Shown: one piece after another, positions 1 through 7,018 of the stretch
How positions within the stretch are numbered: the first letter of the stretch is position 1
How the letters are laid out: each line of letters starts with the position of its first letter
Origin: a bacterium
Lineage (GTDB): Bacteria; CLD3; SB21
Length of the DNA: 38,048 nucleotides
NCBI GenBank assembly: GCA_016787925.1
Contig: JAEUSK010000053.1
Coordinates: 1-38,048 of the forward strand
Direction: 5' to 3'
Notes under the pieces: model-generated
Seen by the model: only the letters and a program-made list of their open reading frames with translations
Told to the model about the DNA's origin: nothing
Database searches by the model: none
Made by a program: the position numbers and the translations under genes

Positions 1-27
1 AGCGGACGTGTAAGCCGCTTGTTATCT
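1..27. repeat. Right half of a truncated attC-like site (site 0)
   Basis: The first bases match the right arm of the complete sites further on: AAGCCGC (12-18) followed two bases later by the core GTTATCT (21-27). The left half lies outside the window, so the array very probably continues upstream. If cassettes are oriented leftward, as their genes suggest, this would be the recombination site belonging to cassette 1. Confidence 0.7.
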
Positions 28-39
28 GACGGCGTGCCC

Positions 40-645
40 CTATTTTTCGAAATCCAAATTCATTGGCGAAGATGGCAACTGATTGGCCTGATTTTTCAAA
101 TCTGTAGTAGGAACACTCAGATCAACGACTTCAAATTTAATGTCATCAAACCAAATCTTTCCTGTGCCGTCTAACAGAAAACCAAAAGCAATGTTGCTTG
201 CGTTCGCGGAAACGTCTAATACAATTTCACATTTTGTCCAATCCGTTGTTCCTTTAATAGAACGATTACCCATGTTATCAAACGCTAAGGATTGGGTCGG
301 ATTAGCCTTGTCATCCACTCTCATCCACATGGAAGACCAAGTTTTGACGTCTTCCGTTTTGATGAATCCGGTCATACGAACACGCTTACCAAAATACATA
401 TCCGCCTTAAACGTCTGCATCATTGTTCCAAAGCCCTGGATGGTAGGCTGATTAGAGCGGACAAATGCACAGCTTGATCCTGAATGAGCAACTTTTAGAT
501 CCTTACCCATATCGTAATCATTTGGTTTACTTCCCGCTGCATGCCAACCCTCTGGCATTGTAGATTGATCAGCGAGGAAGGCATAGCCCGCCACGGTGAG
601 AACTAAAGTTGTAATGCCTGCGATTAGCAAAGATTTCGTCTTCAT
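40..645 (-). CDS. Cassette 1: exported beta-sandwich (carbohydrate-binding-like) protein
   Basis: A 201-residue protein with an N-terminal hydrophobic signal or anchor segment (about residues 5-25). The body has the look of a CBM4/9-like jelly-roll: alternating strands, a GTTDW motif near the middle, and 'GTGKIWFDDIKFEVV' near the end, a phrase I recall from jelly-roll sensor domains attached to AraC-type regulators. A strong AAGGAGG precedes the ATG. The gene fills its cassette almost completely: 49 bases separate its start from the core ending at 694, and its stop is about 13 bases from the core at 21-27. It reads leftward, away from the recombinase at 2693-3547, as genes in integron cassettes usually read away from the integrase. 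The ligand is unknown; the fold is inferred from sequence pattern only. Confidence 0.75.
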   Translation of the reverse strand: MKTKSLLIAGITTLVLTVAGYAFLADQSTMPEGWHAAGSKPNDYDMGKDLKVAHSGSSCAFVRSNQPTIQGFGTMMQTFKADMYFGKRVRMTGFIKTEDVKTWSSMWMRVDDKANPTQSLAFDNMGNRSIKGTTDWTKCEIVLDVSANASNIAFGFLLDGTGKIWFDDIKFEVVDLSVPTTDLKNQANQLPSSPMNLDFEK

Positions 646-684
646 AATTCCTCCTTATTTTAGATGGTGCGCTTTTGGCACGCT

Positions 685-855
685 GTCAGATAACGCGGCG
701 CGGCTACCCGCGGTAGCTCGCACGCGAGGAAAATTAGTTAAGTTAGTACATTCTAAATCGTGAGCGAGCTATCGGCGAGCGAGTGCCACAAAAGCGTAGC
801 ATGTGGGGACTCCAAAAAGCACTCGCGAAGCGAACGGGTAAGCCGCATGTTAGCC
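685..855. repeat. attC-like recombination site A
   Basis: The outer cores are GATAAC (689-694) and GTTAGCC (849-855). The next arms, GCGGCTACCCG (700-710) and CGGGTAAGCCGC (835-846), pair fully except for one extra base on the right, the kind of extrahelical base known in attC sites. An apical stem pairs TAGCTCGC (714-721) with GCGAGCTA (764-771). A side hairpin pairs GCGAGTGC (779-786) with GCACTCGC (819-826). The apical loop is only about 40 bases, so this is the compact form of the site. No IntI-family gene is present, so attC-like is a structural description, not proof of function. Confidence 0.75.
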
Positions 856-1208
856 GATGTGGCCTCCCTGCTCGAATCACTGAAATATCAAATAATCACT
901 AAATCAAAGAACGCTGACTTTACCTGGCCTCGCTCCCAGAACCACAGCTCGACCGCCAATATAGTAACGAAGAACTCAGCGATGAGTGCGAGCGCGTCAA
1001 CTTGAAAAGTCTCGTGTATTCATAAGCGCGAGCACTGATCGCAAGAGGAAAACAAAATCAGACTCAGAAAGTATCAAACAAAGCAAAGCGAGTAGCGAAG
1101 CGCTCGCTGCTCATGCGGTCGAGCTAAATGAAAGTCGTAAAGTCAAAGAACAAAACTGTCAAACTAAGATAAGGCCAGCCGTGTATTTTTCTGGCCATGT
1201 CGGCTAAC
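850..1208. mobile_element. Cassette 2, no convincing gene
   Basis: The segment between site A and site B starts TTAGCCGATGTGGCC (850-864) and ends GGCCATGTCGGCTAAC (1193-1208). These termini are inverted copies of each other and differ from those of neighbouring cassettes 1 and 4. Both strands contain short frames, for example a GTG-started plus-strand frame ending at the TAA of the right core, but their compositions are low-complexity and no ribosome site is evident. Both ends resemble those of cassette 3 (TCAAAGAACAAAACT appears near the right end of both). It may specify an RNA or be an empty cassette. Confidence 0.55.
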
Positions 1209-1560
1209 GCTCGGCGGCTACACGCGGTAGCTCGCGCACAATTAATTAGTGTAAATCAAAAACGTAAACTGTCAAGAAATCTTCTAAGCTCTGACAGCCA
1301 AAACGAAAGTTTAATAAGAACTGATCTCGGCGCGAGGCAAAGAAGTATTCAAAACTAATTGATTCAAATCACGAAACTTGTCAAATCGAACTATCGCCTC
1401 GCGTCGAGTTACGAAATCAAAATCAAATCTTAACGGCTGTCAGAGCGACGCCTAATCAAATGGTGCGCGAGCTATCGGCGAATGACGCGCATACAAAAGT
1501 GTAGCCTGTGGGGTCTCCAAAAAGCGCGTCATGAGCGTACGTGGAAGCCGCATGTTATCT
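1202..1560. repeat. attC-like recombination site B, very long form
   Basis: Cores are GGCTAAC (1202-1208) and GTTATCT (1554-1560). Paired arms: GCGGCTACACG (1214-1224) with the imperfect partner 1540-1551; TAGCTCGCGCAC (1228-1239) with its exact complement (1463-1474). A side hairpin is formed by ATGACGCGC (1482-1490) and GCGCGTCAT (1524-1532). Inside the apical loop lie two further nested stems: GCTCTGACAGCC (1288-1299) with 1435-1446, exact, and CTCGGCGCGAGGC (1326-1338) with 1396-1408, one mismatch. The whole ~360 bp can fold as one long branched hairpin, well beyond the length I know for ordinary attC sites. Confidence 0.7.
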
Positions 1561-1739
1561 GACGTGGCCATTTTCTCGAAACACTGAAACATAAGAAACC
1601 ACTGAATCAATGAACCAAAATATCTCTGGCCGGTCGTGATTCGTCGGGCAACATGAATAAAACGTCATCATAATCAAAGAACAAAACTTTCAAACAGCGA
1701 CAAGGCCAAACGTGCGATGTTTCGGCCATGTCAGATAAC
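1555..1739. mobile_element. Cassette 3, short non-coding cassette
   Basis: This 185-base segment has inverted termini TTATCTGACGTGGCC (1555-1569) and GGCCATGTCAGATAAC (1724-1739). No reading frame of useful length or with a ribosome-binding site is visible. Its left ~60 and right ~65 bases align by eye with the corresponding parts of cassette 2, so the two look like long and short members of one non-coding family. Confidence 0.55.
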
Positions 1740-2103
1740 GCTCGGCGGCTACACGCGGTAGCTCGCGCACACAAATAAATCGTTAATTAAAAACGTAAAC
1801 TATCAAATTCTCTTCTAAGCTCTGACAGCCGAAACGAAAGCCTGAAAGAAATCATCTCGGCGCGAGGCAAAGAAGTATTCAAATCTAAAGAAATCAAAGA
1901 ACAAAACTGTATTCAAATTCCGAAACTCTTCAAATCGAACCATCGCCTCGCGTCGGGTCACGAAATTACATTTAGAACTGAACGGCTGTCAGAGCGAAGC
2001 TTAATCAAACGGTGCGCGAGCTATCGGCGAAGCGACGCCCACAAACTCTCTATCGTCAGATCAAATGGCGTCGCGTAGCGAACGGGGAAGCCGCATGTTA
2101 TCC
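1733..2103. repeat. attC-like recombination site C, very long form
   Basis: Cores are AGATAAC (1733-1739) and GTTATCC (2097-2103). Arms: GCGGCTACACG (1745-1755) with the partner around 2083-2094; TAGCTCGCGCAC (1759-1770) with 2012-2023, exact. Side hairpin: GCGACGCC (2032-2039) with GGCGTCGC (2067-2074). Nested apical stems are GCTCTGACAGCC (1819-1830) with 1984-1995, and CTCGGCGCGAGGC (1856-1868) with 1945-1957. It has the same architecture as site B, but the side-hairpin stem sequence is different and the loop between 2040 and 2066 has been replaced. Confidence 0.7.
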
Positions 2104-2364
2104 GACGGTCGGCAACTTTACAATCTTAAATGCAATTAATGGAGATTCGGGGCGGTTTGCACAAATTTCACACGCGGAATCTCCACATTGTGTTTCAAGC
2201 CAAATATCGCAATAGACACAAAAGTGCGCGTCGTAATGATCTGAATAAATGGAAGAATTATTACATTTCGGACATAGCTCGGCAATGAAGCCGCCGATTT
2301 TGATCCCATTGACTACGACATGCGGGCTATCTACCAACTCTTTTATGTCAAATTCATTTTCCAT
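2098..2364 (-). CDS. Cassette 4: small cysteine-rich (zinc-ribbon-like) protein
   Basis: An 88-residue protein with cysteine pairs CPKC (about residues 31-34), CVYC (about 49-52) and a third cluster 'CGDSACEIC' (about 60-68). The spacing fits one or two zinc-binding knuckles. No signal peptide or membrane segment is seen, so it is probably cytosolic. The stop codon TAA is made by the cassette core itself (GTCGGATAAC on the coding strand), so the boundary sequence is part of the gene. The start lies 37 bases inside the right cassette end and no strong Shine-Dalgarno is visible. The gene reads leftward, away from the recombinase. I do not recognise the family. Confidence 0.65.
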   Translation of the reverse strand: MENEFDIKELVDSPHVVVNGIKIGGFIAELCPKCNNSSIYSDHYDAHFCVYCDIWLETQCGDSACEICANRPESPLIAFKIVKLPTVG

Positions 2365-2401
2365 GACTTGTGTTTACTCTATTTGCCGACTGTCGGATAA
2401 C
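2098..2401. mobile_element. Cassette 4, recombinase-proximal
   Basis: The boundaries are GTTATCCGACGGTCGGCAA (2097-2115) and TTGCCGACTGTCGGATAAC (2383-2401), which pair at 18 of 19 positions; the exception is a G:T pair. It carries the zinc-ribbon-like gene and is the cassette closest to the recombinase, the place where the newest insertion would be expected in an integron. Confidence 0.65.
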
Positions 2402-2470
2402 GACCGTCTATACGTAATTGCGTGTGTATAACGAAAAACGGTCGGTATGCGCAATTGTGTGTGTGTTAAT
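2402..2470. repeat. Site D: candidate attI-like primary site
   Basis: This site lies between the last cassette core (ending 2401) and the recombinase gene, and its sequence is unrelated to sites A-C. It holds two imperfect direct repeats, 2405-2432 (with TATACG-TAATTGCGTGTGTATAA) and 2441-2470 (with TATGCGCAATTGTGTGTGTGTTAA), and a small hairpin GACCGT (2402-2407)/ACGGTC (2438-2443). attI sites of integrons are likewise unlike attC and carry direct repeats bound by the integrase. Identification as the primary insertion site is inference from position and layout. Confidence 0.45.
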
Positions 2471-2486
2471 TATGTATTGTGCTTTC

Positions 2487-2668
2487 GCCGGCCTTGAAAA
2501 AAATGCTGTTAAAACCCGTGTTTGCGATACAAAATCAGCGAAAAACATGTTTGAGTCCCGACTTGTCGGGACGAGTTTGTTTTTCGCAACCGGTAAAGCG
2601 AACGCGGGTTTAAGCATTTTTTTCATAGCCGGTGTTTTCTTTGCTACTTTCTTTTCAAAAAGAAAGCA
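2487..2668. repeat. Dispersed palindromic repeat, copy 1
   Basis: The left arm begins CCGGCCTTGAAAAAAATGC; the right arm (about 2604-2633) contains GCATTTTTTTCATAGCCGG, its inverted copy. The middle holds an exact hairpin GTCCCGACTTGTCGGGAC (about 2546-2563). The tail is a small hairpin CTTTCTTTTCAAAAAGAAAG. It lies just downstream of the recombinase stop. Two further copies follow at 3791 and 5101 in the same orientation. It codes for nothing convincing. Confidence 0.7.
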
Positions 2669-2692
2669 GGGATAGAATCCTGTTCGATCATG

Positions 2693-3547
2693 TCAGGCTC
2701 CATAAGCTGCCAAAGGCTCGCTGACCTTAAAGAGTTTCTCAATCGGGCTTTCAATCTTGGATAAATTACGGTTACTTACATGCGTATAGATTTCTGTTGT
2801 TCTGGAACTTGCATGGCCGAGCAATTCCTGAATGTAACGGAGATCCACGCCGCTCTCCAATAGATGCGTCGCAAAACTGTGCCTCAGCGTATGCACCGTC
2901 GCATGCTTTCTGATCTTTGACAAATTCAACGCCTTCGCAAAAATGTTTTGCACGCTGCGAATGGAGTACCGGTCACCCTTAATCCCTTCAAACAGAAATT
3001 CCGCAGGACTATACTGTTTATAATATTCGCGCAGCATCACTAATACGGCCGGAGACAAAATGGTGTAACGATCCTTCTTGCCCTTCGCCCCGCGAATGTG
3101 CAGAAGCATTCGCTTGGAATCAACATCGCCGATTCTGAGATTGATCACTTCGCCGATTCGAAGCCCTGCTGAATAGATAAGATAAATAAGGCATTTATGT
3201 TTCAGATTGTCGATCATGGAAAAAATTTTCTTCACTTCATCCAAATTCAAAACCGTCGGTAACCGTTCTTCCCTCTGCGGGCGTTCCAGGCGATAGGTTT
3301 GGCGCGGCCTGCCCAGAACCGTTTCAAAATAAAATTTCGCGGCATTAACGGCCTGATTCTGGTATGACGGCGATATTTTCTTTGTCACGATCAAATAATT
3401 GAGGTAAGAATGAACATCCGCATCGGAAAGGCTTTCCGGCTTTCTCGACGGAAAATGTTCGAAAAAAAGCTTTAGGTGGCTTTTGTACGCTTTGATAGTG
3501 TGTCCGCTGTAGCGGCGCAATCTCAGAAGTTTGATAATTTCATCCAT
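2693..3547 (-). CDS. Tyrosine recombinase / integrase (non-IntI, integron-like context)
   Basis: A 284-residue site-specific recombinase. The N-terminal SAM-like core-binding domain spans about residues 1-85 and the catalytic domain about 96-262. The full catalytic set is visible: R130 (SAGLRIGEV), K155 region (GAKGKKDR), H219 and R222 (HTLRHSFATHLL), H245 (LLGHASS) and the nucleophile Y254 (EIYTHVS). Integron integrases carry an extra stretch of roughly 35 residues before the HxxR box; here the protein passes straight from 'FLFEGIKGDRYSIRSVQ' to that box, so it is XerC/D-sized. The tail 'SPIEKLF' recalls the SPL-D-L tail of IntI and of short integrases in Bacteroidota. Its 3' end faces the array, so it is transcribed in the same direction as the cassette genes, the reverse of class 1 integrons. 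It is the only candidate in the window to move the cassettes. Confidence 0.9.
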   Translation of the reverse strand: MDEIIKLLRLRRYSGHTIKAYKSHLKLFFEHFPSRKPESLSDADVHSYLNYLIVTKKISPSYQNQAVNAAKFYFETVLGRPRQTYRLERPQREERLPTVLNLDEVKKIFSMIDNLKHKCLIYLIYSAGLRIGEVINLRIGDVDSKRMLLHIRGAKGKKDRYTILSPAVLVMLREYYKQYSPAEFLFEGIKGDRYSIRSVQNIFAKALNLSKIRKHATVHTLRHSFATHLLESGVDLRYIQELLGHASSRTTEIYTHVSNRNLSKIESPIEKLFKVSEPLAAYGA

Positions 3548-3790: not shown

Positions 3791-3990
3791 CCCGGCCTTG
3801 ATAAAAATGACGAAGAAACCCGAGTTCGCAGCGTAACTTCTGCAAAGAACGGCTTTCATTGACGTTCAACTTCGACGAATCGTGAAGACTGAGAATCGTT
3901 TTTCGCAACCTTGGTCTGCGAACAAGGGTTTAGGCGTTTTTATCACAGCCGGAATTTTCTTTGCAACTTTCTTTTTTAAAAAGAAAGTTG
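3791..3990. repeat. Dispersed palindromic repeat, copy 2
   Basis: The order of blocks is as in copy 1: CCCGGCCTTGATAAAAATG at the left, GGGTTTAGGCGTTTTTATCA then AGCCGG at the right, and the closing small hairpin CTTTCTTTTTTAAAAAGAAAG at about 3968-3988. The centre differs from copy 1. Copies 1 and 2 bracket the recombinase gene as direct repeats. A 64-codon minus-strand frame lies across it, but nothing supports translation. The remaining bases to 4106 hold no gene; an inverted pair AACTCCCGCA/TGCGGGAGTT at 4040-4070 may be the terminator of the next gene. Confidence 0.6.
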
Positions 3991-4106
3991 AGATAGATAG
4001 GTTTTAGGAAAACAGCATCGAAAGGAAATTGTAAAAAAAACTCCCGCAAAATATGATCTGCGGGAGTTGTCAAAATTAGTAAATGTCGGCCTATGCCTGC
4101 TGCGCC

Positions 4107-4908: not shown

Positions 4909-5100
4909 ACGATCTTTCCATTTTTAGTTTTGATATATAGGTTAATTAATGAAAAGTTAAAGAAAGCATTCATAATATGAAATAAAAAAAATTTCGTTGA
5001 AAAGGAGGTTAGGGGGATTTCTTCCTCTTTTTCAAAGGAGAGTTTGAGTCATTTTCTCATGGGTTGAATGGAATAAAAAACATATGACTATAAATGTTTT

Positions 5101-5296
5101 CAGGCCTTTGAAAAAACGGCGTATGAAAATCGAAGCGAAAGCCCGTTAAAAACAAAACATGTCCGAGTTCGCCGGAGGCTTGCCGCAGGCGAACGAGTTT
5201 GTTTTGTTTAGGGCTGGAGCGGAGATTTTAGGCGTTTTTTCAACAGCCCTGGCACTTTTCTTTTCTTCTTTCTTTTGTGCCAGCAAAAGAAAGAAG
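5101..5296. repeat. Dispersed palindromic repeat, copy 3
   Basis: The left block CAGGCCTTTGAAAAAACGGC and the right block TTAGGCGTTTTTTCAACAGCC are inverted copies. The centre has its own hairpin, GAGTTCGCCGGAGGC/GCAGGCGAAC (about 5165-5205). The tail CTTTCTTTTGTGCCAGCAAAAGAAAG closes with a small hairpin. The stem sequences differ from copies 1 and 2, while the layout is kept. The flanking stretches 4909-5100 and 5297-5467 contain no gene that I can support. Confidence 0.6.
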
Positions 5297-5467
5297 AATG
5301 GTTTTTTTGGGCATTGTTCATCTTACATATAGTTTATTGTAAACTCTGATTACTTTGAATTTGCTTTCCTTTTAAAAAAAAGTGAATCCAGATTTTATGC
5401 GGAAAAAATTTATCTTCATGGCCCTGTACCGACCAGCGTAGAGCGAAGATTAGGATGTTGTCCCAAC

Positions 5468-7018
5468 TCAAATACTTCTTTGATAATCCTTGATGGGAAT
5501 AGTCCAGACGCGTTCCCCGCAAAATCGCGCGCCCTCAGGACAATACGGGCGAATGTCCGCCAAAAGGCGAATGCCGCACGGAGGCAATAAATATTTTCCG
5601 ATCTGCGGATTGATCTCAAGAATCTGTTCCGTCTCATCCACCGACGCGCGCCAGATCTCTTCCTGCGCAAGATAACATAATCGCATGGACATTTTGTGGT
5701 GCAGATTCAGCAGGTCGGACGATTCGGTAAAACGAACCGATACCGCGTTCGGAAGAAGATACATGATAAATTCTTCCGGCGCATCCAGCGTGCGGAGACG
5801 GCGCATGGCCTCCCACGTTTTGTTCATCACCTCATCGTAATATTTTTTTACTTGAGTGTCCTGTTCCACCAGAATCGGCGTGATATAATCCGGTTCGTCC
5901 GTCGCGTGCGCGATCAGCAGAGGCCTGGAACCGGGCGTCATGCGATGCCGCTGGTCCTGCGAATCCGCCGCGTGGCTCAGTTTTTTACGAAAGGTGTAAT
6001 GGGGATGAAATAGCGTGCGGGATAATTTAGATAACGTCGTCAGGTTCAGCGATTCGCCAAATAGATTATTCTTCGCAGGATCGAGAACGAGCCGGATCGC
6101 TTCGCCGTCCGATATCATGTCCTTGGTTGCGCCCAGAACTTCCCGTACGCTTTGCGCGAGCGTCGCCTCGTTGCTGTTTTTATAATCGGCTAATTTGGAA
6201 ATGCGCCCGTCCAGGCTCTGATCGAATTCATCCAGAAACGCTTGCTGTTTTTTCGCTTTGTAGTAATTCTGATGCTCCGTAAAAAAATGATATTCCGGTG
6301 TGTCCTCGAGCGGAAGTTCTTCCTGCAAAATGACGTTGTACATCGGATCCACTTTGATCAGTTCACGCACCATTTTTTCAATGACGATCTTCTGCTCAAG
6401 CGGCGTGTCAAATTGATTGGACAGCCTGTAATACCGAAGCAGGGTTATACCGCTGATGGTATGGTACATGTACGCGAACGCTGCAACGGGAATGACGTAC
6501 CGCGCGATCTCCTGGCATTTTTTTTTGATTTCGCCGGCATATTTTTCCTTTACTTTCACGCGCGATGGAAACCGTTTGAAATACGCGTCTTCCGTGACCG
6601 GGCGCAGAAGTTCATTCATCCTGCGATACGCCGCCATTTGATCATCGATCGTTTCGCGGTAAATCTTCAGCGCTTCGCCTTTGAGCGGCGGAATCAAAAA
6701 ACTGCCTTCTTTGATCTCGACGTAACGCTGGCTCACCTGTTCGGAATTATAATACGGATGGCTGTGAAGGAAACTCCAGATGAACTGGCGGGAAATATTG
6801 GCGAGCTCAAACTGAAAGTACGCGTGCGAAAAAACCGTGTGATGGCCGGCCTGGTACACGCTCTGCGCGAGCGGAAAATGTTTGTCCGTGATCTGCTCGT
6901 CCCGCACAATACCTTTGGAAGAGTAACAGGTGCGCGCCGTGGCGATCGCATTCTGAAAAGGGGTGCTGAACGATTTAGACAAAACGACGTGCGGCGCTTC
7001 GGAGAGAAAGGTGTTCAA
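5468..7018 (-). CDS. Long FAD-dependent thymidylate synthase-like (ThyX-type) protein
   Basis: A 516-residue protein, about twice the usual ThyX length, apparently with two ThyX-like halves. In the first half, 'ISRQFIWSFLHSHPYYNSEQ' followed by VSQRYVE (about residues 74-100) occupies the place of the ThyX signature RHRxxSxNExSxRY; the end (S..RY) is kept but the RHR is not. In the second half, 'HAADSQDQRHRMTPGSRP' (about 350-367) is a second, rearranged signature-like block. Canonical ThyX makes dTMP from dUMP with methylenetetrahydrofolate, FAD and NADPH. Long proteins of this kind are usually annotated as ThyX in FCB bacteria, but whether they are the working thymidylate synthase cannot be told here. 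The product is cytosolic. It is the last gene of a minus-strand series, separated from 7099-7482 by a short tandem repeat. Confidence 0.75.
   Translation of the reverse strand: MNTFLSEAPHVVLSKSFSTPFQNAIATARTCYSSKGIVRDEQITDKHFPLAQSVYQAGHHTVFSHAYFQFELANISRQFIWSFLHSHPYYNSEQVSQRYVEIKEGSFLIPPLKGEALKIYRETIDDQMAAYRRMNELLRPVTEDAYFKRFPSRVKVKEKYAGEIKKKCQEIARYVIPVAAFAYMYHTISGITLLRYYRLSNQFDTPLEQKIVIEKMVRELIKVDPMYNVILQEELPLEDTPEYHFFTEHQNYYKAKKQQAFLDEFDQSLDGRISKLADYKNSNEATLAQSVREVLGATKDMISDGEAIRLVLDPAKNNLFGESLNLTTLSKLSRTLFHPHYTFRKKLSHAADSQDQRHRMTPGSRPLLIAHATDEPDYITPILVEQDTQVKKYYDEVMNKTWEAMRRLRTLDAPEEFIMYLLPNAVSVRFTESSDLLNLHHKMSMRLCYLAQEEIWRASVDETEQILEINPQIGKYLLPPCGIRLLADIRPYCPEGARFCGERVWTIPIKDYQRSI

Follow-up and report, generated by a model that had tools for sequence, protein, structure and literature searches.

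Sedentary chromosomal integrons, such as the Vibrio superintegron, comprise an integrase gene, an adjacent attI site and a long cassette array in which most cassettes have one gene and share one direction, and in which gene-less cassettes and cassette copies occur. Their attC sites are hairpins with R and L boxes, and the crossover falls between the G and TT of the core (G/TT). The I2 domain of the integron integrase IntI is treated as necessary for cassette capture (PMC7790495) and is used as the detection criterion for integron integrases (PMC9668308), and the sequence of the IntI ancestor is reported missing (PMC7790495). Among "integron-like" simple tyrosine recombinases this insertion is not fully conserved; in the part of that study available to us, the insertion is described as essential for integron function, and members without it are tied to no arrays (Smyshlyaev et al. 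2021, PMC8138268). Clusters of attC sites without an integron integrase are termed CALIN, and in Bacteroidetes proper IntegronFinder 2.0 identified just one integron that was complete (PMC9024848).

The locus described here shares the gene, site, array and hairpin anatomy of sedentary integrons. It differs from them as follows: its integrase lacks I2 and scores under the IntI cut-off, the integrase gene is read in the same direction as the array, the attC spacers measure 2–3 versus 5–6 nt, the R stem of the circular cassette is extended and always interrupted at base 11 by an unpaired A, and most cores read GTTAT or GTTG in place of GTTRRRY. Very probably, a large chromosomal integron begins here with its attI end, and it belongs to a separate class in which an I2-less, IntI-like recombinase moves the cassettes. 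A search of the open-access literature found no description of an I2-less integron class.

Organization of the locus

The window, that is, the whole stretch of 38,048 nucleotides analysed, is the start of one contig (C186) of a genome comprising 312 contigs at 95% completeness. On the minus strand, the recombinase gene (3547–2693) is followed by a non-coding stretch, an attI-like site and four cassettes that run to the contig edge:

2693–3547, minus strand: I2-less, integron-integrase-like tyrosine recombinase, 284 aa
2402–2461 (approximate), minus strand: attI-like site with two imperfect ACACRCAATTRCGYATA repeats, ending just before G/TT
1739–2400, minus strand: cassette 1 (TT...G), gene 2098–2364 (88 aa); ends GTTATCCGAC-A-GTCGGCA at 2384–2401 and its complement at 2097–2114; attC about 1739–2114
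1208–1738, minus strand: cassette 2, no clear gene, of a recurrent gene-less family of about 186 bp; ends 1722–1739 and 1554–1571; attC about 1208–1571
694–1207, minus strand: cassette 3, no clear gene, of a recurrent family of about 360 bp; ends 1191–1208 and 849–866; attC about 694–866
1–693, minus strand: cassette 4, gene 40–645 (201 aa); ends 677–694 and 21–38; attC continuing past the contig edge

The four segments with matched inverted ends that an earlier note on this DNA had reported (21–694, 849–1208, 1554–1739 and 2097–2401, with outer bases GTTA...TAAC) are all in place and constitute the cassette bodies. They are separated, as that note also held, by attC-like sites of about 170–375 nt, the inner arms of which are paired (GCGGC/GCCGC) and the spacers of which are unequal, with 2 nt after AAC versus 5 nt before GTT. 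The two clear cassette genes lie on the minus strand and point away from the recombinase, in agreement with the earlier reading, and the recombinase-proximal site, which had been set apart as resembling attI, is conserved up to G/TT in sister species. The extent of the array called for revision: the cassettes and sites of the window are real, and the array continues past the contig edge onto eight further contigs. A search for the site core AAGCCGCATGTTATCYGACG with up to three mismatches gave 43 matches in the genome versus none for the reversed control, and about 35 more cassettes are found on these eight contigs, which are 3–10 kb long and mostly carry sites and cassettes right to their ends. 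Contig breaks at its repeated sites are what one large array would be expected to produce, and the distribution of sites indicates that the window cassettes are the recombinase/attI end of one such array, now fragmented.

Copies of both gene-less families, which measure about 186 and 360 bp before the attC and are 65–94% identical, are present without a conserved gene in the arrays of three genomes (G000, G001 and G002); the attC of the shorter family is mostly unusually long (about 360–470 nt). A palindromic repeat dispersed between genes, GGCCTTGAWAAAAATG ... CATAGCCGG and then CTTTCTTTT..AAAAGAAAG, is observed at 2488–2676, 3792–3997 and about 5100–5300 of the window and adjoins attI in this genus. 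Farther along, positions 5468–7018 hold a 516-aa open reading frame, about twice the usual length, whose N-terminal part resembles a ThyX-type thymidylate synthase by eye.

The short recombinase and its distribution

The earlier description of a single, short, non-IntI tyrosine recombinase with a full catalytic set and without the additional domain of IntI agrees with the profile searches and the alignment. Residues R130, K155, H219, R222, H245 and Y254 are kept. The best NCBIfam match is TIGR02249 (integron integrase), at 228 bits versus a cut-off of 265 and with profile positions 180–240 unmatched. Scores against the XerC profile (181.7 bits, cut-off 335) and the XerD profile (173.5 bits, cut-off 329.6) are far lower than their cut-offs, and NF040815, the XerA-type "site-specific tyrosine recombinase/integron integrase", gives 215.9 bits, just under its cut-off of 220. 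The catalytic Lys is separated from the HxxRH motif by 64 residues, compared with 64–69 in relatives, 66–72 in most Xer proteins and 105–107 in IntI, a spacing from which I2 is judged to be absent. An AlphaFold model (pLDDT 85.6) has IntI4 (2a3v) as its best structural match (E 1e-16). Similar to XerA, XerC and XerD in size and in the absence of I2, the protein nevertheless falls on the other side of a branch with 100/100 support that splits short recombinases and IntI from Xer. Within the tree, IntI forms a clade (100/99), and the AU test of the short recombinases as a clade versus IntI nested among them gives p 0.33. Comparison with orthologues from two sister species yields dN/dS of about 0.06 (0.036/0.61 and 0.037/0.66), indicating that the recombinase is under purifying selection. 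Two related genomes encode the recombinase a second time (L097, G002:C33; L098, G004:C10), and both of these loci show signs of an additional array.

More than a dozen of the tested genomes, the majority from Bacteroidota, show the pairing of recombinase and array, which in some cases is plasmid-borne. In relatives found by sequence, the first cassette lies just 3′ of the recombinase on the same strand, and orthologues directly upstream of a first cassette occur in the phylum of the window, represented by nine genomes in the set, as well as in Bacteroidota, a Firmicutes and a Spirochaetota. Loci with recombinase and cassettes include those of Winogradskyella ursingii, Seonamhaeicola aphaedonensis, Rufibacter, Zunongwangia mangrovi and Algibacter onchidii, the last with 10 chained cassettes, and further loci are found in MAGs of Spirochaetota and Firmicutes. 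Adjacency was scored as a paired cassette end starting no more than 260 nt downstream of an anchor gene. At a score of at least 12, such an end follows 22 of 33 short-recombinase loci versus 1 of 27 Xer loci and 4.9% of random anchors; at a score of at least 13, the corresponding values are 17/33, 0/27 and 0.5%. About one-third of the short recombinases have no adjacent array under the strict test, for some of which a contig end accounts. No array accompanies one related short recombinase (L094 in G014), whose neighbour is a transposase read by eye as IS91-type.

Of 301 Flavobacteriaceae genomes in a fresh sample, 187 matched the short recombinase strongly. From these an independent set of 18 regions of 20 kb beside the recombinase was taken on contigs numbered C1, most of which comprise a whole or near-whole genome; 16 regions have chains of 3–28 cassettes, one has two and one has none, and in several the longest chain begins kilobases from the gene, not at attI. 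On two annotated plasmids (L238 and L239), from Chryseobacterium sp. SNU WT5 and Rufibacter tibetensis, the recombinase gene likewise precedes co-directional cassettes, and the Rufibacter attC sites are short, about 50–60 nt.

Arrays of this kind would presumably be called CALIN, or missed, by IntI-specific searches. Given how often CALINs occur and how fragmented MAGs are (PMC9668308), the window could hold an ordinary CALIN whose canonical IntI acts in trans or has since been lost, with the neighbouring recombinase a bystander. A profile search found no IntI that exceeds the cut-off of TIGR02249 in the window's genome, in 16 further genomes carrying the short recombinase or in 16 Flavobacteriaceae genomes of the 301-genome sample, most of them with arrays; many of these assemblies are single-contig or near-complete, and the same search recovered IntI in six of six known IntI genomes. 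Unlike CALINs, the arrays have their own recombinase and attI, in the same layout across phyla, and the recombinase is selectively maintained. In addition, the sites differ from those of IntI arrays in their spacers and in base 11 (see below). A bystander role for the recombinase is on these grounds very improbable.

Cassette ends and the crossover point

Each cassette of the genus set (87 cassettes of three species) begins with about 10–18 bases that are complementary to its own 3′ arm and not to that of its neighbour, so that the R stem is whole only in the circular form of the cassette. Own-end pairing averages 6.8/7 for bases 4–10 and 5.9/7 for bases 12–18, compared with 4.9/7 and 2.2/7 for the arm of the next cassette and 4.7/7 and 2.4/7 for shuffled ends; none of 1000 shuffles came near the observed pairing. 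In a 28-cassette Flavobacteriaceae array, pairing is 6.9/7 with the own end versus 3.0/7 with the neighbour. Base 11 is A in 87 of 87 genus cassettes and paired in none, A in 44 of 44 cassettes from other loci with one paired, and A in 142 of 143 chained cassettes of the independent Flavobacteriaceae set, again paired in none. The arm sequences themselves are diverse, with 31 distinct kinds among the 87 genus cassettes, and the conserved property is therefore pairing and not sequence. This covariation indicates that pairing in the circular-form stem is selected, whichever strand or enzyme uses it.

The spacers measure 2–3 nt after AAC versus 5–6 nt before GTT in most chains. A GTTAT core is present in 76 of 81 distinct genus cassettes, which depart from the GTTRRRY/RYYYAAC consensus. 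The attC sites fold with z-scores of about −4 to −9, and the bottom strand is more stably folded than the top in all 16 sites tested; an Rfam search of the sites gave no useful match. True IntI loci were searched for extended paired ends and none was seen, in a small control in which one IntI array was detected (L138); it has pairing of about 8–10 nt, equal spacers and a base 11 other than A. A permissive chain detector, which returned long chance chains in AT-rich DNA, was dropped in favour of a strict detector with reversed-sequence controls.

The crossover point is placed by comparison of arrays. Three species of the genus have attI in common and three different first cassettes. The attI-like site of the window is 92% identical to those of two sister species upstream of G/TT and 47–55% identical downstream, and two of the three species are 100% identical over the 60 nt before G/TT and 38% after it; the first cassettes in this comparison were chosen partly by eye, the objective tests being those of the 33 loci and the 18 regions. 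Cassettes that share up to 100% identity also recur inside one genome, flanked by different neighbours, as in a locus (L284) with four copies of one 609-bp cassette, and a 90.8%-identical cassette is shared between species, also with different neighbours. The identity of duplicate cassettes spans TT through the attC to G and then drops to 28–60%. These breakpoints place the crossover inside the GTT core, between its G and its TT.

Inverted repeats do bound each gene segment, as they would in tandem terminal-inverted-repeat transposons or MITEs. However, the repeats differ between segments and match only inside one segment, and the segments alternate with hairpin sites and carry no transposase. 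Most also share one direction (75/86 in the genus; 27 of 28 genes in the 28-cassette array), and the breaks fall at G/TT with no target duplication. A transposon or MITE origin is hardly tenable.

In the reading that we prefer, the short recombinase would insert circular cassettes at the adjacent attI and would excise or copy them at attC sites with crossover at G/TT. Anatomy and breakpoints support capture and copying of the integron type by this enzyme, and an attI next to the integrase gene with the first cassette inserted, the arrangement by which an integron is recognized, is what is found. From the own-end covariation and the better folding of the bottom strand, we infer that the substrate is probably the folded bottom strand of attC, used as a single strand whose stem is whole only in the circle. 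Since I2 is held necessary for capture (PMC7790495), an I2-less enzyme acting on folded attC would need another mode of recognition; our guess is that the unpaired A at base 11 and the unequal spacers may specify strand and site, standing in for I2 and the extrahelical bases of known integrons.

Alternatively, the recombinase might move cassettes by double-stranded, Xer-like recombination, as its lack of I2, its Xer-like Lys-to-His spacing and an attI that looks like a double-stranded core site could suggest. Recognition of a duplex would keep sequence and not pairing, whereas in these arrays the cores vary, within-cassette complementarity and a fixed mismatch are kept, and folding is biased toward the bottom strand. 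Double-stranded recombination thus appears unlikely, and use of the folded strand remains our preferred reading.

The earlier note had proposed a cassette-capturing system parallel to, or diverged from, known integrons. The observations it had named as contrary, namely a recombinase apart from such sites, identical arrays in all relatives and an IntI elsewhere in the genome, were each sought, and none was made. Its further proposal that this recombinase moves these cassettes remains an inference, drawn now from co-occurrence and breakpoints.

Relation to tet(X3) and to known integrons

On Acinetobacter plasmids, a gene annotated "xerD" or tnpF lies upstream of tet(X3) (L236:5001–7116, A. indicus plasmid p80-1-2-tetX3; likewise L237 and L240). 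Its product is an N-truncated member of the short recombinase family, 52.6% identical. The tet(X3) segment starts at an attI junction of the type seen in this class, with ..GGCGTATAGCCACTT before and GTTATGTGCC-A-TTTTT after the crossover point; 25 nt past the tet(X3) stop lies the end of a 3′ arm that matches in part (9 of 12 scored bases; chance expectation about 0.018 within 1.4 kb). From this junction and arm, tet(X3) may once have been the first cassette of an I2-less integron, and the class may account for the unexplained "xerD" beside it.

It seems that a widespread class of gene-capture systems has been overlooked. A broader reading, which we put forward tentatively and at slightly less than even confidence, is that these loci form a second major integron branch that is prevalent among Bacteroidota and whose I2-less integrase reads a conserved A bulge on folded, single-stranded attC; this branch might retain the state from which IntI arose by gaining I2, and might be a source of tet(X) for clinical bacteria. 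The I2 helix is taken both as the innovation that enabled integrons and as the marker used to detect them, and a full integron anatomy without it would question both. I2-less systems would provide living relatives for the study of IntI evolution, and many unseen cassettes would surface, given a strong match in nearly two-thirds of the Flavobacteriaceae genomes sampled versus the one complete integron that IntegronFinder 2.0 had identified in Bacteroidetes proper (PMC9024848).
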